DNA from: Psychrobacillus sp. FSL K6-2836
Lineage (GTDB): Bacteria > Bacillota > Bacilli > Bacillales_A > Planococcaceae
DNA: 64,000 nt
Reading direction: 5' to 3'
Assembly (NCBI RefSeq): GCF_038003085.1
Contig: NZ_JBBOOM010000001.1
Coordinates: forward strand, 2,604,001 to 2,668,000
The notes under the pieces were generated by a model that did no database searches, had not been told where the DNA came from, and saw only the letters and a list, made by a program, of their open reading frames with translations. Made by a program: the position numbers and the translations under genes. Of the stretch, positions 10,179 to 52,751 are shown in pieces (the stretch's first letter is position 1; every line of letters starts with the position of its first letter).

Positions 10179-10751
10179 AATTAATGAAAAGCGAGTGATT
10201 AGCCGTTTTTTTAAAGAAAGTATAAAAAGATGTGCCGTGAACACTGGATTCATAGGACTATAAAAATGAATAATACTGTGATTTCCGTTTCAGGTGGACG
10301 CTTTCCGCGGGCGAGGCCGAGCCTCCTCAGGCCAACAGGATGTTGGTCACGAAGGCGTTGCCACACGAGGTGGCGCTCTTAGCCTTTGTTCCCTTGAAAC
10401 GCTCCCTGCGGGGTCTCGACTTTCTCGCTGTTCCCGCTGAAGTCGCCACCTTTCACTACAATCAACTAGTGTGTAGTACTCCACTATAAGATTTGCATAG
10501 CTTATCACTTAGATAATAAAATTGTTCAAATTTAAGAAAGTGATAAAATTATTTGTAATCTCTTTTGAATTAGAAGTGCGATTATCCAATGATAGTTGAA
10601 GAAAACAGATTTTCTTTTATACTAGTGCATATAAAGAAAAGTAGTAAGTGGTTACCAAATAAAGAAGCGAAAGAGCGAACGAAATTGCATCTTCGAGAGC
10701 TTACTCTATGAATTAGAAAGTATCTTATCCTTAATTATCCAAAAAAGCACT

Positions 10752-10926
10752 AACCTGTTTCTAAAAGTTGTAGAAGGGCGACGGTCAGACAAACGCCATA
10801 AGATTACCGAAAAAAAAGGGAATGCTGGTTGTGACGTACGTCACAACCAGCATCCCTAAAAGTTCACATGGTAATAATATAGCGACAAGTCTGTCCAAAG
10901 CATTTCGGAAACGTTAGAAACAGGTT
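10752..10926. repeat. Long imperfect palindrome of repeat copy 1
   Basis: The outer arms AACCTGTTTCTAA (10752-10764) and TTAGAAACAGGTT (10914-10926) are perfect complements. Inside them GGTCAGAC pairs with GTCTGTCC and ATTACC with GGTAAT. The apex is a perfect 30-bp palindrome at 10823-10852. The whole module can fold into a single rod-like hairpin. Confidence 0.85.
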
Positions 10927-10940
10927 TTGAACTTAAAGGA

Positions 10941-10965
10941 CCGGGCAACTTTTTGTCTGGTTTTT
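10941..10965 (+). terminator. Terminator at the right end of repeat copy 1
   Basis: CCGGGCAA pairs with TTGTCTGG using G-U pairs and is followed by five T. The same structure ends the other copies of the element. Confidence 0.7.
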
Positions 10966-10986
10966 GTAATGCTTTTTATTGTATCC

Positions 10987-11667
10987 CTATGCTTTTAAGC
11001 TACACCCATCCGGAACTTGAGTTGGATCAGTAACAAGATTTTCTTGTATATGAACTTGGTGCATTTTGTTGTTATGCATAAATTTGAAAATACCGTTTTC
11101 AAAATCTGTTCCGATTTCTTTGAAGAAAATACCTTCTTGGCACATATTCTTCTCACAAGTGAAGGAGACTTTATAAGAATCTCCGTCTGCCACTAAATAA
11201 GCACGGACTCCTTTTTCGAAAATGCCATCTTCTTCATCTTTAATGTAACGGGCAACCGAAACAACATGGAAGTCCACGAAAGGAATTTCTTTTAACAAGA
11301 CATTCATGAATGATCCCTTTGTTATTTCTTCCCATCTGCTTTGTGCGGTTTGTCCTATAATAATTTGAGTTATATTTAAACCATGGGCCACTTCTTTAAT
11401 AACTTTTGGAGAAGGACGTTTTTCGTTATCACGAATGATAAACTCTTCAACATCCAACTCATCCGCCAAATTTTTCCACTGTTCAATATATCCAGATTTC
11501 TCAGCATCGAATGCATCATATGGTAGTGGATCAACTGTTAGTATATATAGTGGACAATCTAGCATACTTGCCATTTTATGTCCTCTTCTAATTAGTCGCT
11601 CTCCATTTGGCCCGTAGTATACGCAAACAAGTATACTCTCATCCATTCGACCTTTTACGCGTTTCAC
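10987..11667 (-). CDS. Universal-stress/KdpD-N-terminal-like protein
   Basis: The 226-residue protein resembles the Usp-like domain of KdpD sensor kinases. SILVCVYYGPNGERLIRRG starts the Rossmann-type fold, and the nucleotide-loop region IIIGQTAQSRWEEITKGS lies around residue 120. The C-terminal 80 residues form an extra domain with two cysteines (CEKNMC). The start is placed at GTG 11667 because AAAGAGGTG lies about 9 nt upstream. It is divergent from the Mrp antiporter operon, so a link to monovalent-cation or pH stress is plausible but inferred. No transmembrane or kinase domain is present. Confidence 0.7.
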   Translation of the reverse strand: MKRVKGRMDESILVCVYYGPNGERLIRRGHKMASMLDCPLYILTVDPLPYDAFDAEKSGYIEQWKNLADELDVEEFIIRDNEKRPSPKVIKEVAHGLNITQIIIGQTAQSRWEEITKGSFMNVLLKEIPFVDFHVVSVARYIKDEEDGIFEKGVRAYLVADGDSYKVSFTCEKNMCQEGIFFKEIGTDFENGIFKFMHNNKMHQVHIQENLVTDPTQVPDGCSLKA

Positions 11668-12011: not shown

Positions 12012-14423
12012 TTGTTTTCTATAAATTTAGTTATATTAATCCCATTTATAGCAGCCGCACTTATGCCTTTTTTATACAGGCGATTTAATAAGATTCACCT
12101 TGGTTGGTTTGTATTAATCGTACCTATTACTTTGTTTGTCATACTTGCTAGGCTAATTCCCTCGGTAGCAGGTGGTAAAACTTATGTCCATACCTATGAA
12201 TGGATTCCCACATTAGATTTTAACTTCACTACATATTTAGATGGACTAAGTATGATATTTGCTCTATTAATCACAGGCGTTGGAAGCTTAGTTATTTTAT
12301 ATTCCATTTTTTATCTTTCATCTAAAGAATCCTTACAACATTTTTATTGTTATTTATTATTATTTATGGGTGCCATGCTTGGAGTTGTTTTTTCTGATAA
12401 CTTAATGGTGTTATATGTTTTTTGGGAGTTAACGAGTGTTTCTTCGTTCCTGTTAATCGCCTTTTGGAATCATCGACAAGCCTCTAGACAGGGTGCACAA
12501 AAAGCAATGCTAATCACTGTAAGTGGCGGAATTGCTATGCTGGTTGGTTTTATCATGTTACATACGATGACTGGTTCTTTCAGTATTCGAGAAATAATTG
12601 CTAATGTGAGTGAGTTTAGCGACCACGCATTGTTCATACCTGCGATGATTTTAGTATTGCTGGGTGCATTTACGAAATCAGCACAATTTCCTTTCCATAT
12701 TTGGCTACCGGATGCTATGGAGGCACCAACCCCTGTTAGTGCTTATTTACACTCGGCAACGATGGTGAAGGCAGGTATATATTTGGTGGCCCGTTTCACG
12801 CCAGTTTTTGGAGCTGATGAAGTATGGTTTTGGGTAGTAAGTGTAGTTGGGATGATTACTCTATTTTGGGGTTCCTTTAATGCTGTCCGACAAACCGATC
12901 TGAAAGCATTACTAGCGTTTTCTACTATTAGTCAGCTTGGGCTAATCATGAGCTTGCTTGGTTTAGGGTCGATAGCATTACAGTTTGGCTATTCTGCTGA
13001 TTCAGTTCTGTACACACAAGCAACATTTGCTGCTTTATTTCACTTGATCAATCATTCAACTTTTAAAGGTGCATTGTTTATGGTCGTTGGAATTCTCGAT
13101 CACGAGTTAGGAACAAGGGACGTTCGAAGACTAGGTGGATTAATGACATTCATGCCATTTACATTTACCGTCGCTTTAATAGGAAGTTTATCGATGGCCG
13201 GTTTACCACCGTTCAATGGATTCCTTAGTAAGGAAATGTTCTTTGCAGCAACTGTACATATTATGGAAGTAGATATTTTCTCTTTACCATCGTTCGGAAT
13301 TATCTTCCCAGTTGTAGCTTGGATCGCTAGTGTATTTACATTTGTTTACTGTGTGATTATCGTTTTTAAAGCATTTCTTGGTAAACCTCAGCCAGAAAAA
13401 TTGGATAAACCTATTCATGAAGCACCTATTGGAATGTTAATATCTCCAATGATTCTTGCCGCTTTAGTTGTTGGTATTTTCTTCTTTCCAAATCTATTAG
13501 GTAAATATATATTACAACCGGCTATGGGCAGTATTTATCCAACTTTTGGAGACGCAGCAGACTTAACACCAAAAATATCAGCATGGCATGGAGTGCAACC
13601 TGAATTACTCATGACTATTGCAGTTATTATAGTAGGTGCTATTCTATTTAAATTCCTTAAATTATGGAAACCAATCTATGGATTGTTTTCTTCTCGCTTC
13701 ACATTGAATGCACTTTATAATAATTTGTTGGCGTCCTCCGTTAGCAAATCCAATATAGTAACTAATCGCTATATGAACGGATTATTACGACATTATTTAA
13801 TGTATATTTTTGTATTCTTTGTATTGGCTGTAGGTGGGTATTTGTTTTATTCAAGAGCGTTTTCGTTTGATATTTCAACAAATGCAACTTTCAGAGTCTA
13901 TGAAGTGTGTTTAGTTGCTATTATGGCGATTGCGGCGTTATCTATGCTATTTGCTAAGTCACGTATGACAGCGACATTGTTGAATGGAGTATTAGGCTAC
14001 TCAATTGCTATCTTTTTTGTTATTTTCCGGGCTCCAGACTTAGCCTTAACCCAGTTAGTCGTTGAATCTGTTACCACTGCATTATTCCTATTAGCTTTTT
14101 CTCATTTACCGGATTGGAAAATGGAAAAGCTTCCAAAAGGAACAAAAGTAGTCAATGGAATAATATCGATAGCGGTCGGATTAGTAGTTGTTTTAGTTGG
14201 ATTATCAGTAGTAGATTTCAATCAATTCGATACTATTTCTAGCTACTTTGAAGATGCTTATGAATTAGCTGGAGGAGCAAATATCGTAAATGCTATATTG
14301 GGAGATTTCCGTGGTTTTGATACGATGCTCGAAGTGGTCGTACTATTTATAGCGGGTTTAGGTGTGTATTCGATGATTAAGCTAAAAGCAAAAAAGGAGG
14401 ATGAAAACATTGAAGATCAATGA
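12012..14423 (+). CDS. mrpA: Na+/H+ antiporter subunit MrpA
   Basis: The 803-residue membrane protein is the large subunit of the multi-subunit Mrp sodium/proton antiporter, homologous to NuoL/ND5 of complex I. It carries the proton-translocation core (LLLFMGAMLGVVFSDNLMVLYVFWELTSVSSFLLI, PFHIWLPDAMEAPTPVSAYLHSATMVKAGIYL) and the MrpA-specific C-terminal extension with the MbhD/MbhE-like region from about residue 640. The start is TTG, 6 nt after AGGAGGT. It is the first of seven overlapping genes and acts in pH and sodium homeostasis. Confidence 0.95.
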   Translation: MFSINLVILIPFIAAALMPFLYRRFNKIHLGWFVLIVPITLFVILARLIPSVAGGKTYVHTYEWIPTLDFNFTTYLDGLSMIFALLITGVGSLVILYSIFYLSSKESLQHFYCYLLLFMGAMLGVVFSDNLMVLYVFWELTSVSSFLLIAFWNHRQASRQGAQKAMLITVSGGIAMLVGFIMLHTMTGSFSIREIIANVSEFSDHALFIPAMILVLLGAFTKSAQFPFHIWLPDAMEAPTPVSAYLHSATMVKAGIYLVARFTPVFGADEVWFWVVSVVGMITLFWGSFNAVRQTDLKALLAFSTISQLGLIMSLLGLGSIALQFGYSADSVLYTQATFAALFHLINHSTFKGALFMVVGILDHELGTRDVRRLGGLMTFMPFTFTVALIGSLSMAGLPPFNGFLSKEMFFAATVHIMEVDIFSLPSFGIIFPVVAWIASVFTFVYCVIIVFKAFLGKPQPEKLDKPIHEAPIGMLISPMILAALVVGIFFFPNLLGKYILQPAMGSIYPTFGDAADLTPKISAWHGVQPELLMTIAVIIVGAILFKFLKLWKPIYGLFSSRFTLNALYNNLLASSVSKSNIVTNRYMNGLLRHYLMYIFVFFVLAVGGYLFYSRAFSFDISTNATFRVYEVCLVAIMAIAALSMLFAKSRMTATLLNGVLGYSIAIFFVIFRAPDLALTQLVVESVTTALFLLAFSHLPDWKMEKLPKGTKVVNGIISIAVGLVVVLVGLSVVDFNQFDTISSYFEDAYELAGGANIVNAILGDFRGFDTMLEVVVLFIAGLGVYSMIKLKAKKEDENIEDQ

Positions 14424-24797: not shown

Positions 24798-25459
24798 TGA
24801 GGTAAGTATATAAAAATATGCGGAGAACACTGAGTTCATGATACTTGAGTGAATGAATAATACTGTGATTTCCGTTACAGATGGACGCGTTCCGCAGGCG
24901 CAGCTTCAATCTCCTCGTCACTGCGTTCCTGCCGGAGTCGCCACCTTGCACTACCATCAATATAATGTGTAGTATGCAGGCAAAAAGATAGAGCATAGGC
25001 TATCGCTTAGATGATAATAGTGGTCAAAGTTAATATAGTGATAAAACCATCTGTTGAATCAAAGGTACTATTCTGTTATGAAGGATGATGAAAGTAGATT
25101 TCCTTTTTTACTAGTGGAACTCAAGAGAGATAGTAAGTAGTTACTAAATAAAGAATCCAAATAGCGAACGAAACTGCATCTTCGTGAGCTTGCTCTATGA
25201 ATAAGAAAGTATCTTTTCTCTAGTTATCCAAAAACGCACTTACCTGTTTCTGAGGGTTGTAAGAGGTCGAAGTATAGACAAACGCCATAAGATTACCGAA
25301 AAAAAGGGATGCTGGTAGGTTATGAGGGTCACAACCTACCAGCATCCCTAAAAATTCACTCGGTAATCATATAGTAAAATGTCTGTCCAAAGCCCTTTGA
25401 ATACGATAGTAACAGGTTTGACCTTAAAGGACTGGTCATCTTTTTTGCCCAGTTTTTTT
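24798..25459 (+). repeat. Non-coding repeat element, copy 2 (full length)
   Basis: This element occupies most of the gene-free gap 24750-25571. It matches copy 1 in order: left end (AAGTATATAAAAATATG...GAACACTG), a shortened GC-rich core at about 24866-24961, the AT-rich middle, the long palindrome at about 25242-25418 and the terminator. The apex stem has arms at 25306-25321 and 25333-25348. Confidence 0.85.
25431..25459 (+). terminator. Terminator at the right end of repeat copy 2
   Basis: ACTGG pairs with CCAGT and is followed by seven T. Confidence 0.65.
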
Positions 25460-25571
25460 GTGTTGGGATTGAAATATTTAGTTCATGTAACGATAAGATA
25501 AAATATTTAGAGAGCCGATTAAGCGATTTTCAGTAGTGATTATAGTACACTAGGGGAAAGGAGTGGATCCT

Positions 25572-27025: not shown

Positions 27026-27138
27026 GTGCGCCTATGTATTGGAAGTCAGTTTAAGTTTACGACATCGTGTCGCGACGACTGACTGACCCGAATCGTTCGG
27101 CCTTGAAATCCTGAAGTGACTCAGGCGGGCTAGGCGCT
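27026..27138. repeat. Cruciform-type intergenic repeat
   Basis: The inverted arms GCGCCTA (near 27028) and TAGGCGC (near 27131) enclose GC-richer sequence with internal palindromes around TGTCGCGACGA. It sits between the convergent yumC and GIY-YIG genes and looks like a dispersed extragenic repeat, unrelated to the 0.7-kb family. Confidence 0.6.
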
Positions 27139-31700: not shown

Positions 31701-31848
31701 GAAAGATAAGTATATAAAAATGTCCCGTGAACACTCGGTCCGCGGGACTTGAAAGAATGATTAATGCTGTGATTTCCGTTTAGCTCTTCGAAAACGACAG
31801 AAACAGGTTTTGATCTTAAAGGACTGGCCGTTTTTTTGCCCGGTTTTT
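31701..31848 (+). repeat. Non-coding repeat element, copy 3 (internally deleted)
   Basis: This copy keeps the left end (AAGTATATAAAAATG..GTGAACACT) and the right end (GACAGAAACAGG...TTAAAGGACTGG plus terminator). It joins them directly after GTGATTTCCGTTT, losing the core and palindrome. It begins exactly at the last T of the host gene's terminator. Confidence 0.8.
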
Positions 31849-49370: not shown

Positions 49371-49376
49371 ATTTTA

Positions 49377-49987
49377 AAGGAAGAAAGTATATAAAAATGT
49401 CCTATGATTACTGGGTTCACTAAACTTTCAAGGCGGAATAATCCCTATGATTTACGTTACATGTGGACGCTTTCCGCGGGCGAGGTCGAGCCTCCTCATT
49501 CGCTACGCTCCTTGCGGGGTCTCGACTTTCTCGCTTATCCCGCTGGAGTCGCCAAATTTCACTACAATCAATTAAGTGAGTAGTACTAAGATTTAACATA
49601 GCCTCTCGCTCAGATGAAAAGAGTAGACGAGCCCGGTTAGGAATCCTATTTTAATGAAAGGAAAAAGTAGATTTTCTTTTACAAGTGTCCATTTCATCAT
49701 TACTTATTTTAAGATAAAACACGTATATTTATGTGGTTTTATATCCAATTATGCGTTTAGTTAAAGTGGACCTAGTTGATTGGAGAGCAGGGCGGCGACT
49801 CCAGTGGGAACAGCGCGAGCTGAAGACCCTGGACTAAGCGTAGCGAAAATCTTTTTTGCGACGAGCTTGCGCAGGAGCAAGGGAAGCGGCTGAAGACGTG
49901 CCCACGGAAAGCGTCCGCTCGGAGCGGAAATCAGCGGCATATCTACGTTTCTGTTCTTAAAGGACGGGGCATCTTCTTGCTCGGTTT
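49377..49987 (+). repeat. Non-coding repeat element, copy 4 (rearranged)
   Basis: This copy keeps the left end (AAGTATATAAAAATGTCC) and a GC-rich core at about 49452-49572. The part usually holding the palindrome is replaced by a second core in inverted orientation (about 49773-49932). It ends with TTAAAGGACGGGGC and a terminator at 49962-49988. It dominates the 881-bp gene-free gap 49325-50205. Confidence 0.8.
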
Positions 49988-50002
49988 TTCTTATTATCTA
50001 GT

Positions 50003-52239: not shown

Positions 52240-52484
52240 AAGAGATAGGAAAGTAACGCACTAATCTGTTTCTAAGCGTTGCAGAAGGGCGACGGACAGA
52301 CGAACGCCATAAGGTTACCGAAAAAAAGGATGCTGGTTGGTTGTGACGGATGTCACAACCAACCAGCATCTCTAAAAATTCACGGGGTAATAATATAGCG
52401 ACAAGTTCTGTCCAAAGCACTTCGGAAACGCTAGAAACAGATTTTGTGCTTAGAGGACCGGGAATCTTTTTTGCTCAGTTTTTC
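52240..52484 (+). repeat. Non-coding repeat element, copy 5 (right half only)
   Basis: Only the long palindrome and terminator remain. The outer arms are AATCTGTTTCTA (near 52263) and TAGAAACAGATT. The apex has perfect 19-bp arms at 52329-52347 and 52352-52370. The terminator is at about 52458-52484. It starts directly after the host terminator. Confidence 0.85.
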
Positions 52485-52751
52485 CTATCCAGAAATCGTA
52501 AAATAAGCAATGAAAAGTACAAATACAACTATTGCATTTATTAAATTATATTTAGTTCTAGAAATCGTTTGATCGAATCTATCAGATTTCTTAATAAATA
52601 CAATACCAAGATAGGTTATGAAAATCGCTAAAAACAATGAGAAAATGGGAGGCATCGCATAAACGCGAGCATCGATAAAGTGCACAATGATAATTGCGAT
52701 CGCCATTGCTACACCATAAGCAACTTTTTTAATTGTTGGTTCTTTCATCAT
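52485..52751 (-). CDS. Small membrane protein of unknown function
   Basis: The 88-residue protein has about three hydrophobic segments: residues 9-25 (VAYGVAMAIAIIIVHFI), 33-52 (MPPIFSLFLAIFITYLGIVF) and 68-86. GGAGG precedes ATG 52751 and ATG 52748. No family was recognised. It abuts repeat copy 5, whose terminator ends at its stop codon. Confidence 0.65.
   Translation of the reverse strand: MMKEPTIKKVAYGVAMAIAIIIVHFIDARVYAMPPIFSLFLAIFITYLGIVFIKKSDRFDQTISRTKYNLINAIVVFVLFIAYFTISG

Follow-up and report, generated by a model that had tools for sequence, protein, structure and literature searches.

A mobile, multi-copy non-coding element of Psychrobacillus carries a long paired rod under structural selection and lands mostly behind terminators

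The available portions of two papers (PMC6542083, PMC3446304) describe bcr1-bcr3 of the Bacillus cereus group as non-coding, intergenic, MITE-like repeats that reach up to about 130 copies per genome, are restricted to related species, can fold and are sometimes transcribed; the bcr repeats measure 100-400 bp and show a TTTAT motif at insertion. Group IIC introns, according to the accessible part of PMC7161350, recognise a terminator stem-loop at their insertion site. The insertion sequences IS608 and ISDra2 target the lagging strand (PMC6006769, in excerpt), and REPs are sequences of 20-40 bp (PMC3733652, in excerpt). Here we characterize a non-coding element of Psychrobacillus, up to ~750 bp long, for which the open-access literature yielded no recognised description, subscription papers lying mostly outside that search.

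The window, that is, the whole stretch of DNA that was analysed (64,000 nucleotides, C1:2604001-2668000), comes from the Psychrobacillus sp. FSL K6-2836 genome, which measures 4.54 Mb in five contigs. Repeat families tie together five places within it, 10213-10965, 24799-25459, 31701-31848, 49376-49993 and 52240-52487, whose ends were read from the sequence:

10213-10965, + strand: copy 1, full element with rod (repeat families; site element-free in two relatives, filled in P. antarcticus)
10206-10212, + strand: T-tract at the copy 1 insertion point, with no clear hairpin remaining 5' of it (sequence)
10218-10275, + strand: copy 1 left end, which includes a stretch able to form a hairpin (family D2, left-end alignment)
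10332-10398, - strand: Bacillaceae-1 hairpin (RF01690) within copy 1 (70.2 bits, gathering score 35)
10675-10700, + strand: hairpin P1 of copy 1, loop ATTGCATC, stem with three mismatches
10749-10924, + strand: rod of copy 1, the reported palindrome (R1 201.3 bits; fold)
10936-10965, + strand: copy 1 right end, a terminator-like hairpin with a T-tract (fold; not flagged by the consensus scan)
24799-25459, + strand: copy 2, full element, rod at 25238-25416 (repeats, R1; element-free site in genomes G013 and G007)
31701-31848, + strand: copy 3, left end fused to right end, without rod (repeats; element-free site in OK028)
49376-49993, + strand: copy 4, with the shared left end, a similar right end and, in place of the rod, an inverted GC-rich block (element-free site in G013)
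52240-52487, + strand: copy 5, right end preceded by a rod (52260-52441), the usual left part missing (site element-free in P. antarcticus and G007)

No open frame of at least 100 aa lies inside the five copies, and a search with the rod model R1 finds three rods in the window. The neighbouring gene at 12012-14423, which we take to encode an Mrp antiporter subunit, is 94% identical to that of P. psychrodurans, 93% to that of P. antarcticus and 91% to that of Psychrobacillus sp. OK028. Elements of the copy 4 type (49376-49993), with the same left end and inverted GC-rich block, also occur at L254-L258 and in many copies in the genus, and G018 has many occurrences, at ~87% identity, of a ~165-nt unit akin to the copy 4 3' part (e.g. 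L259-L261). Relative to the remainder of the element, the Bacillaceae-1 block has the orientation opposite to that of copy 1 in eight loci (L003, L006, L008, L009, L013, L016, L017 and L019), which would fit a module able to invert or to insert in either direction; a further match (44.8 bits, 27035-27101) is intergenic and lies outside the five copies.

The earlier note had proposed that copies 1, 2 and 5 each fold into a rod, and this palindrome observation is confirmed. Folding gave -93.8 kcal/mol for copy 1 (10744-10970; z -10.41), -81.1 kcal/mol for copy 2 (25233-25460; z -6.95) and -100.5 kcal/mol for copy 5 (52255-52490; z -10.53), values that no shuffle equals, the rod being ~175 nt long. 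Copy 1 does have the outer arm AACCTG/CAGGTT and copy 5 does have AATCTG/CAGATT, the two that had been set against each other, and TAGGTT/AACCTA is present in copy 2. That the apex stays perfectly paired holds for copy 1, where it forms a perfect 32-nt palindrome, but not for copy 2, in which an A:C mismatch stands above TAGGTT/AACCTA.

R1, a covariance model built from 30 rods of alignment A3, gave 137 matches on the host genome, 32 of which are the reverse strand of listed rods, leaving 103 rods on contig C1 and two on C4. The host thus holds at least 105 rods, a lower bound, as 150 of the 1921 candidates were scored. Rods occur in every one of the 19 genomes of the genus, with 4 to 144 matches each, both strands counted; 145 candidates were scored per genome, so that these counts are at least those given. 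In a survey of the order with stricter filters, in which weak matches are lost, rods were found in 36 of 261 genomes and three of 19 genera (19 genomes of g1, 6 of g11 and 11 of g3). Among relatives, 57 of the 80 loci similar to the window's neighbour gene were searched along with the window, yielding three rods in P. antarcticus (L166), one weak rod in P. psychrodurans (L164) and two in Sporosarcina sp. E16_8 (L194); since L194 resembles the g3 loci, we infer that g3 is probably Sporosarcina. A plasmid or phage origin was considered and set aside: the copy 1 rod and right end found no counterpart among 72,556 plasmid and 50,697 phage records, a set from which records of the host genome or of one very close to it were possibly excluded.

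Selection on the structure was evaluated in two alignments: A4, comprising 74 host-genome rods, including L024, whose 5' part is broken and which was excluded from A2 and A3, and A5, comprising 28 rods from 22 sources chosen for low reverse-strand scores at E<=1e-9, a threshold at which L096 and L097 gave no match. Both were fitted to the model and therefore lean towards structure. In A4, 93.4% of 3049 cells pair and double changes occur at 24 of the 43 pairs, all five pair measures lying above every one of 500 shuffles; when partners are shifted by 1-3 columns, pairing is 31-45%. Double changes in A5 occur at 36 of 43 pairs, with four measures above all 500 shuffles and the fifth reached by three of them. 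These measures were complemented by a tree-based covariation null modelled after R-scape (own implementation, 100 null alignments, E<0.05). Four of the 43 pairs pass this test in A4, all of them in the apex and none in the lower rod, and 14 of 43 pass in A5, which spans three genera, where they are spread over five of the seven helices; non-structure pairs pass in neither alignment. Since only apex pairs pass within the genome, the three window copies alone could not show selection. The larger alignments nevertheless bear out the earlier note's reading of selection for structure, with significant covariation that arises mainly between genomes. The paired base changes among the relatives of the rod show that a folded single strand is under selection.

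The apex and the lower rod vary in different manners. Mismatches (A:C and other) occupy 15 of 737 apex cells versus 186 of 2312 cells in the lower rod. The latter frequently has one-sided G:U states in A4 (175 of the 2312 cells) and keeps unequal internal loops across genera. Apex columns 108/150 switch from U-A to C-G with 27 double changes and no one-sided state. The cleanness of the apex could be due to stronger selection or to templated correction. Replacement of whole arms, which had been named as the explanation that would undo the claim, fits the lower rod poorly because G:U states are common there and unequal loops persist across genera; for the apex, templated correction may have acted.

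We also asked which strand folds. The inferred changes out of Watson-Crick pairing in A4 comprise about 139 to G:U and about 70 to A:C, giving a G:U share of 0.65 on terminal and 0.75 on internal branches versus 0.476 expected from per-base rates at unpaired columns. The corresponding events in A5 are 28.8 to G:U and 16.7 to A:C, a share of 0.63-0.64 versus 0.462 expected on the same basis. Raw transition counts show no difference between the paired lower rod (143:108) and unpaired columns (218:143; Fisher p 0.40), and they are insufficient, so that the G:U excess is visible only against per-base rates; between internal and terminal branches there is no clear difference (p 0.41 for G:U/A:C; p 0.055 for kept/broken). 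G:U states therefore exceed A:C beyond the mutation pattern, which points to the + strand as the folded strand, either as RNA or as single-stranded DNA. The open choice between a folded RNA and a DNA hairpin is thereby narrowed to a fold of the + strand, with RNA favoured and single-stranded DNA kept as a candidate.

The rod is part of a larger conserved core, in which a hairpin, P1, is followed by a linker of ~47 nt and then by the rod. The stem of P1 varies freely, and its eight-base loop is near-constant and close to ATTGYATC. Counted only where at least six of its nine pairs form, P1 is present at 37 of 74 host rods, 24 of 28 A5 rods and seven of nine further genus rods (two of the seven being one place, L070 and L117); its distance to the rod in A5 is 44-50 nt in 22 of 24 cases and 55 and 56 nt in the other two. 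An alignment of P1 (30 of these other hairpins and window copy 1, 27 distinct rows) has 93.0% of cells paired versus 73.7% in shuffles, a percentage inflated by the selection of P1 on pair count, and the double changes at six of nine stem pairs are matched in number by 74 of 500 shuffles. Linkers have TATTCTTT-like and CCAAAA-like stretches in common. Within the rod, unequal internal loops with GGCGACGGA or GCGACGGA opposite TCCAAAGC recur at many loci of three genera, as does GATTACCGAAAA near CGGTAAT. Many host P1 hairpins (e.g. 10675-10700) carry the identical three stem mismatches, A:A, A:G and G:A, a mark of a subfamily or an internal loop rather than random decay. A known RNA family was also considered and rejected: Rfam 15 gave nothing at gathering score over P1 or rod in the window and six further loci, and under relaxed settings 10180-11000 and L194 900-1950 yielded sub-gathering matches only, apart from Bacillaceae-1.

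Other arrangements of the core were also observed. Two P1-rod units of two subtypes diverge from each other in L114 (2470-3320) and L115 (2270-3330), both of g3, and in L194 (1000-1860, Sporosarcina sp. E16_8); in L114, inspection by eye suggests inverted ends and shows a 9-bp direct repeat flanking the unit, within a terminator-like hairpin. Tandem P1-rod units ~200 nt apart are found in L104 (5255-5788, genome G012) and L105 (4795-5323, G011). These genomes have four rod matches each in all, both strands counted, of which the tandem units are nearly the sole ones, and the units of L104/L105 are possibly an old fixed locus. Because diverging and tandem units occur in such other settings, the core does not depend on a single type of element.

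The element is mobile, since for each of the five window copies a relative has the corresponding site without it: the intergenic region measures 806 nt at copy 1 versus 46 and 95 nt in relatives, 813 versus 151 and 152 nt at copy 2, 200 versus 53 nt at copy 3, 881 versus 259 nt at copy 4 and 599 versus 350 nt (two genomes) at copy 5. Two other genomes carry longer insertions that start with the left end at the copy 5 site, indicating either that this site was used more than once or that the window copy is a remnant. At the junctions, the element is preceded by the upstream T-tract, which stays in place on its left side, and has a T-tract of its own on the right; in Psychrobacillus, no terminal inverted repeats or constant duplication were seen by eye beyond the T-tracts.

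The left-end pattern had 62 hits in the host genome versus 10 in a reversed control. Landing sites were analyzed at 29 left ends, namely the 30 loci listed without L293, judged a chance match at a gene start. A terminator (a hairpin of -4 kcal/mol or better with a T-run within 32 nt upstream) lies 5' of the left end in 23 of 29 cases versus 70 of 1160 random upstream places, and two of the 23 terminators are formed by the right end of a different copy. The position behind genes explains part of this link, as such a terminator lies at some point in the ~110 nt that follow the stop of 27 of the window's 58 open frames. At 23 of 29 left ends, the closest open frame upstream lies on the same strand. 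Insertion mostly behind terminators should cause little harm. The rods are also oriented with respect to replication, 93 of 103 being directed away from the origin (p 0.004 if a gene bias of 80% is assumed), where the origin is placed at the main dnaA match (2.198 Mb, minus strand) and the terminus assumed opposite.

Genes that could act on the element were sought in the host. There is one Y1_Tnp gene, of REP type by NCBIfam at 50.7 bits, below the cut-off of 80, and one RVT_1 gene, a group II reverse transcriptase without N-terminus, accompanied by an intron 3' end; the latter pair (L295 533-2680) lies directly behind an Abi_C-domain gene. Neither the Y1 nor the reverse transcriptase locus has a clear match to the element, and no ends of the element border the Y1 gene. 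Across the genus, RVT_1 counts do not track rod matches: G013 has 123 rod matches and one weak reverse transcriptase match, G003 has 137 and 18, and G012 has four of each. An autonomous partner was rejected at the loci covered: of nine left-end loci examined out of 30 fetched, seven have no longer, gene-bearing element, and L268 and L270 have only what is apparently one and the same insertion inside the element, presumably IS3-type.

Transcription signals of the element are weak. Copy 1 has a promoter-like site on the + strand at 10596-10623 and three such sites in all versus a shuffle mean of 1.7, no more than in shuffles, and the consensus terminator scan did not flag its right-end hairpin, though folding gives one at 10936-10965. 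A hairpin and T-run follow within 70 nt of 25 of 74 host rods versus 37 of 740 random places.

The analysis shows a paired single-strand fold under selection, many copies, mobility, the position behind terminators, the orientation with replication and the spread over three genera. We find it somewhat probable that a structured RNA (P1, linker and rod) is the cargo of a non-autonomous mobile element which inserts at terminator T-tracts. Its core would work as an RNA read in the + direction, and the element would enter a terminator T-tract while that strand is the single-stranded lagging-strand template. Insertion would be carried out by a trans-acting enzyme, for which an HUH/Y1 transposase is the most economical guess, and the folded RNA would be kept because spread of the element or tolerance by the host depends on it, for example by binding the mobilising enzyme or a host factor. 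Single-stranded DNA may instead be the working form, with no RNA function, in which case a transposase would recognise the rod and end hairpins on the template of the lagging strand, much as IS200/IS605 and REP systems work; we see this as possible, if rather unlikely. Only the + strand is shown to fold, and it is also the lagging-strand template in elements directed away from the origin. G:T pairs are tolerated in DNA hairpins, which suits a DNA fold. The single Y1_Tnp gene, REP-type under the cut-off (50.7 versus 80 bits), and the lagging-strand targeting stated for IS608 and ISDra2 in the available part of PMC6006769 also agree with such a form; however, the unequal loops and the eight-base loop are kept over three genera, rod and P1 also occur in elements with other ends, and no element ends flank the Y1 gene.

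Without any selection on structure, replication might correct one arm of the quasi-palindrome from the other and so create paired changes, a process compatible with columns 108/150, which switch through 27 double changes and no one-sided state, and with the rarity of apex mismatches (15 of 737 cells). Correction should erase mismatches, G:U pairs and unequal loops, and is therefore disfavoured for the lower rod, which keeps 186 mismatches and 175 G:U in 2312 cells as well as unequal loops between genera; the significant A5 pairs, moreover, spread over five of seven helices, and we judge correction alone very improbable. We give equally little credence to a retroelement in the manner of group IIC introns, with a reverse transcriptase of the group II type copying its RNA and the copy being placed in terminators. 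The target would be of the same kind (PMC7161350, accessible part), the element's T-tract end meets the target T-tract, and the genome has a group II reverse transcriptase, without N-terminus, and an intron 3' end. Against this, the window holds no group II intron at gathering score and the element's own match (21.3 bits) is at chance level, while G013 combines 123 rod matches with one weak reverse transcriptase match and G012 has four of each. Quite unlikely, though less so than these two, is a bacterial counterpart of SINEs, in which the conserved structured RNA of ~250 nt would itself be the mobile or targeting agent, directing a non-autonomous element to T-tracts of terminators on the lagging-strand template and being carried by element types that differ per genus. 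For the favoured reading, a mobile element with a structured RNA, what stands out is a core without Rfam match that is mobile, abundant and common to three genera; at ~100 copies per genome, individual ones of which are missing from sister species, both the RNA and the rule of insertion are directly testable.

The comparison with described systems, made by description from the available portions of the sources cited, places the element near bcr1-bcr3, since it is also non-coding, intergenic, multi-copy, foldable and limited to relatives. It is set apart from them by its length of up to ~750 bp and its terminator T-tracts; the Psychrobacillus junctions inspected by eye have T-tracts and no constant TTTAT. 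With group IIC introns it shares the position behind intrinsic terminators (23 of 29 left ends), but no catalytic core or domain V was found in it, and it encodes no protein. The Intron_gpII model had no match in the window, nor up to E 5 in 10180-11000, in a search that was positive at L295, and the best group II trace in the element is a plastid group II intron match at chance level (21.3 bits, gathering 52.5, E 3.6). Hairpins, a lagging-strand link, many passive copies and a single Y1 gene recall IS200/IS605-derived elements and REP/REPIN sequences with RAYT (PMC6006769, PMC3116915, PMC2817692, as far as their accessible text goes); the rod of ~175 nt within a longer element differs from a REP palindrome of 20-40 bp, and the Y1 gene shows no link to element ends. 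Bacillaceae-1 RNA (RF01690), a 67-nt hairpin inside copy 1 that overlaps neither P1 nor the rod, is a separate module found in either orientation. In its many copies, its non-coding nature and its element-free sites, the element corresponds to a MITE-like non-autonomous element.
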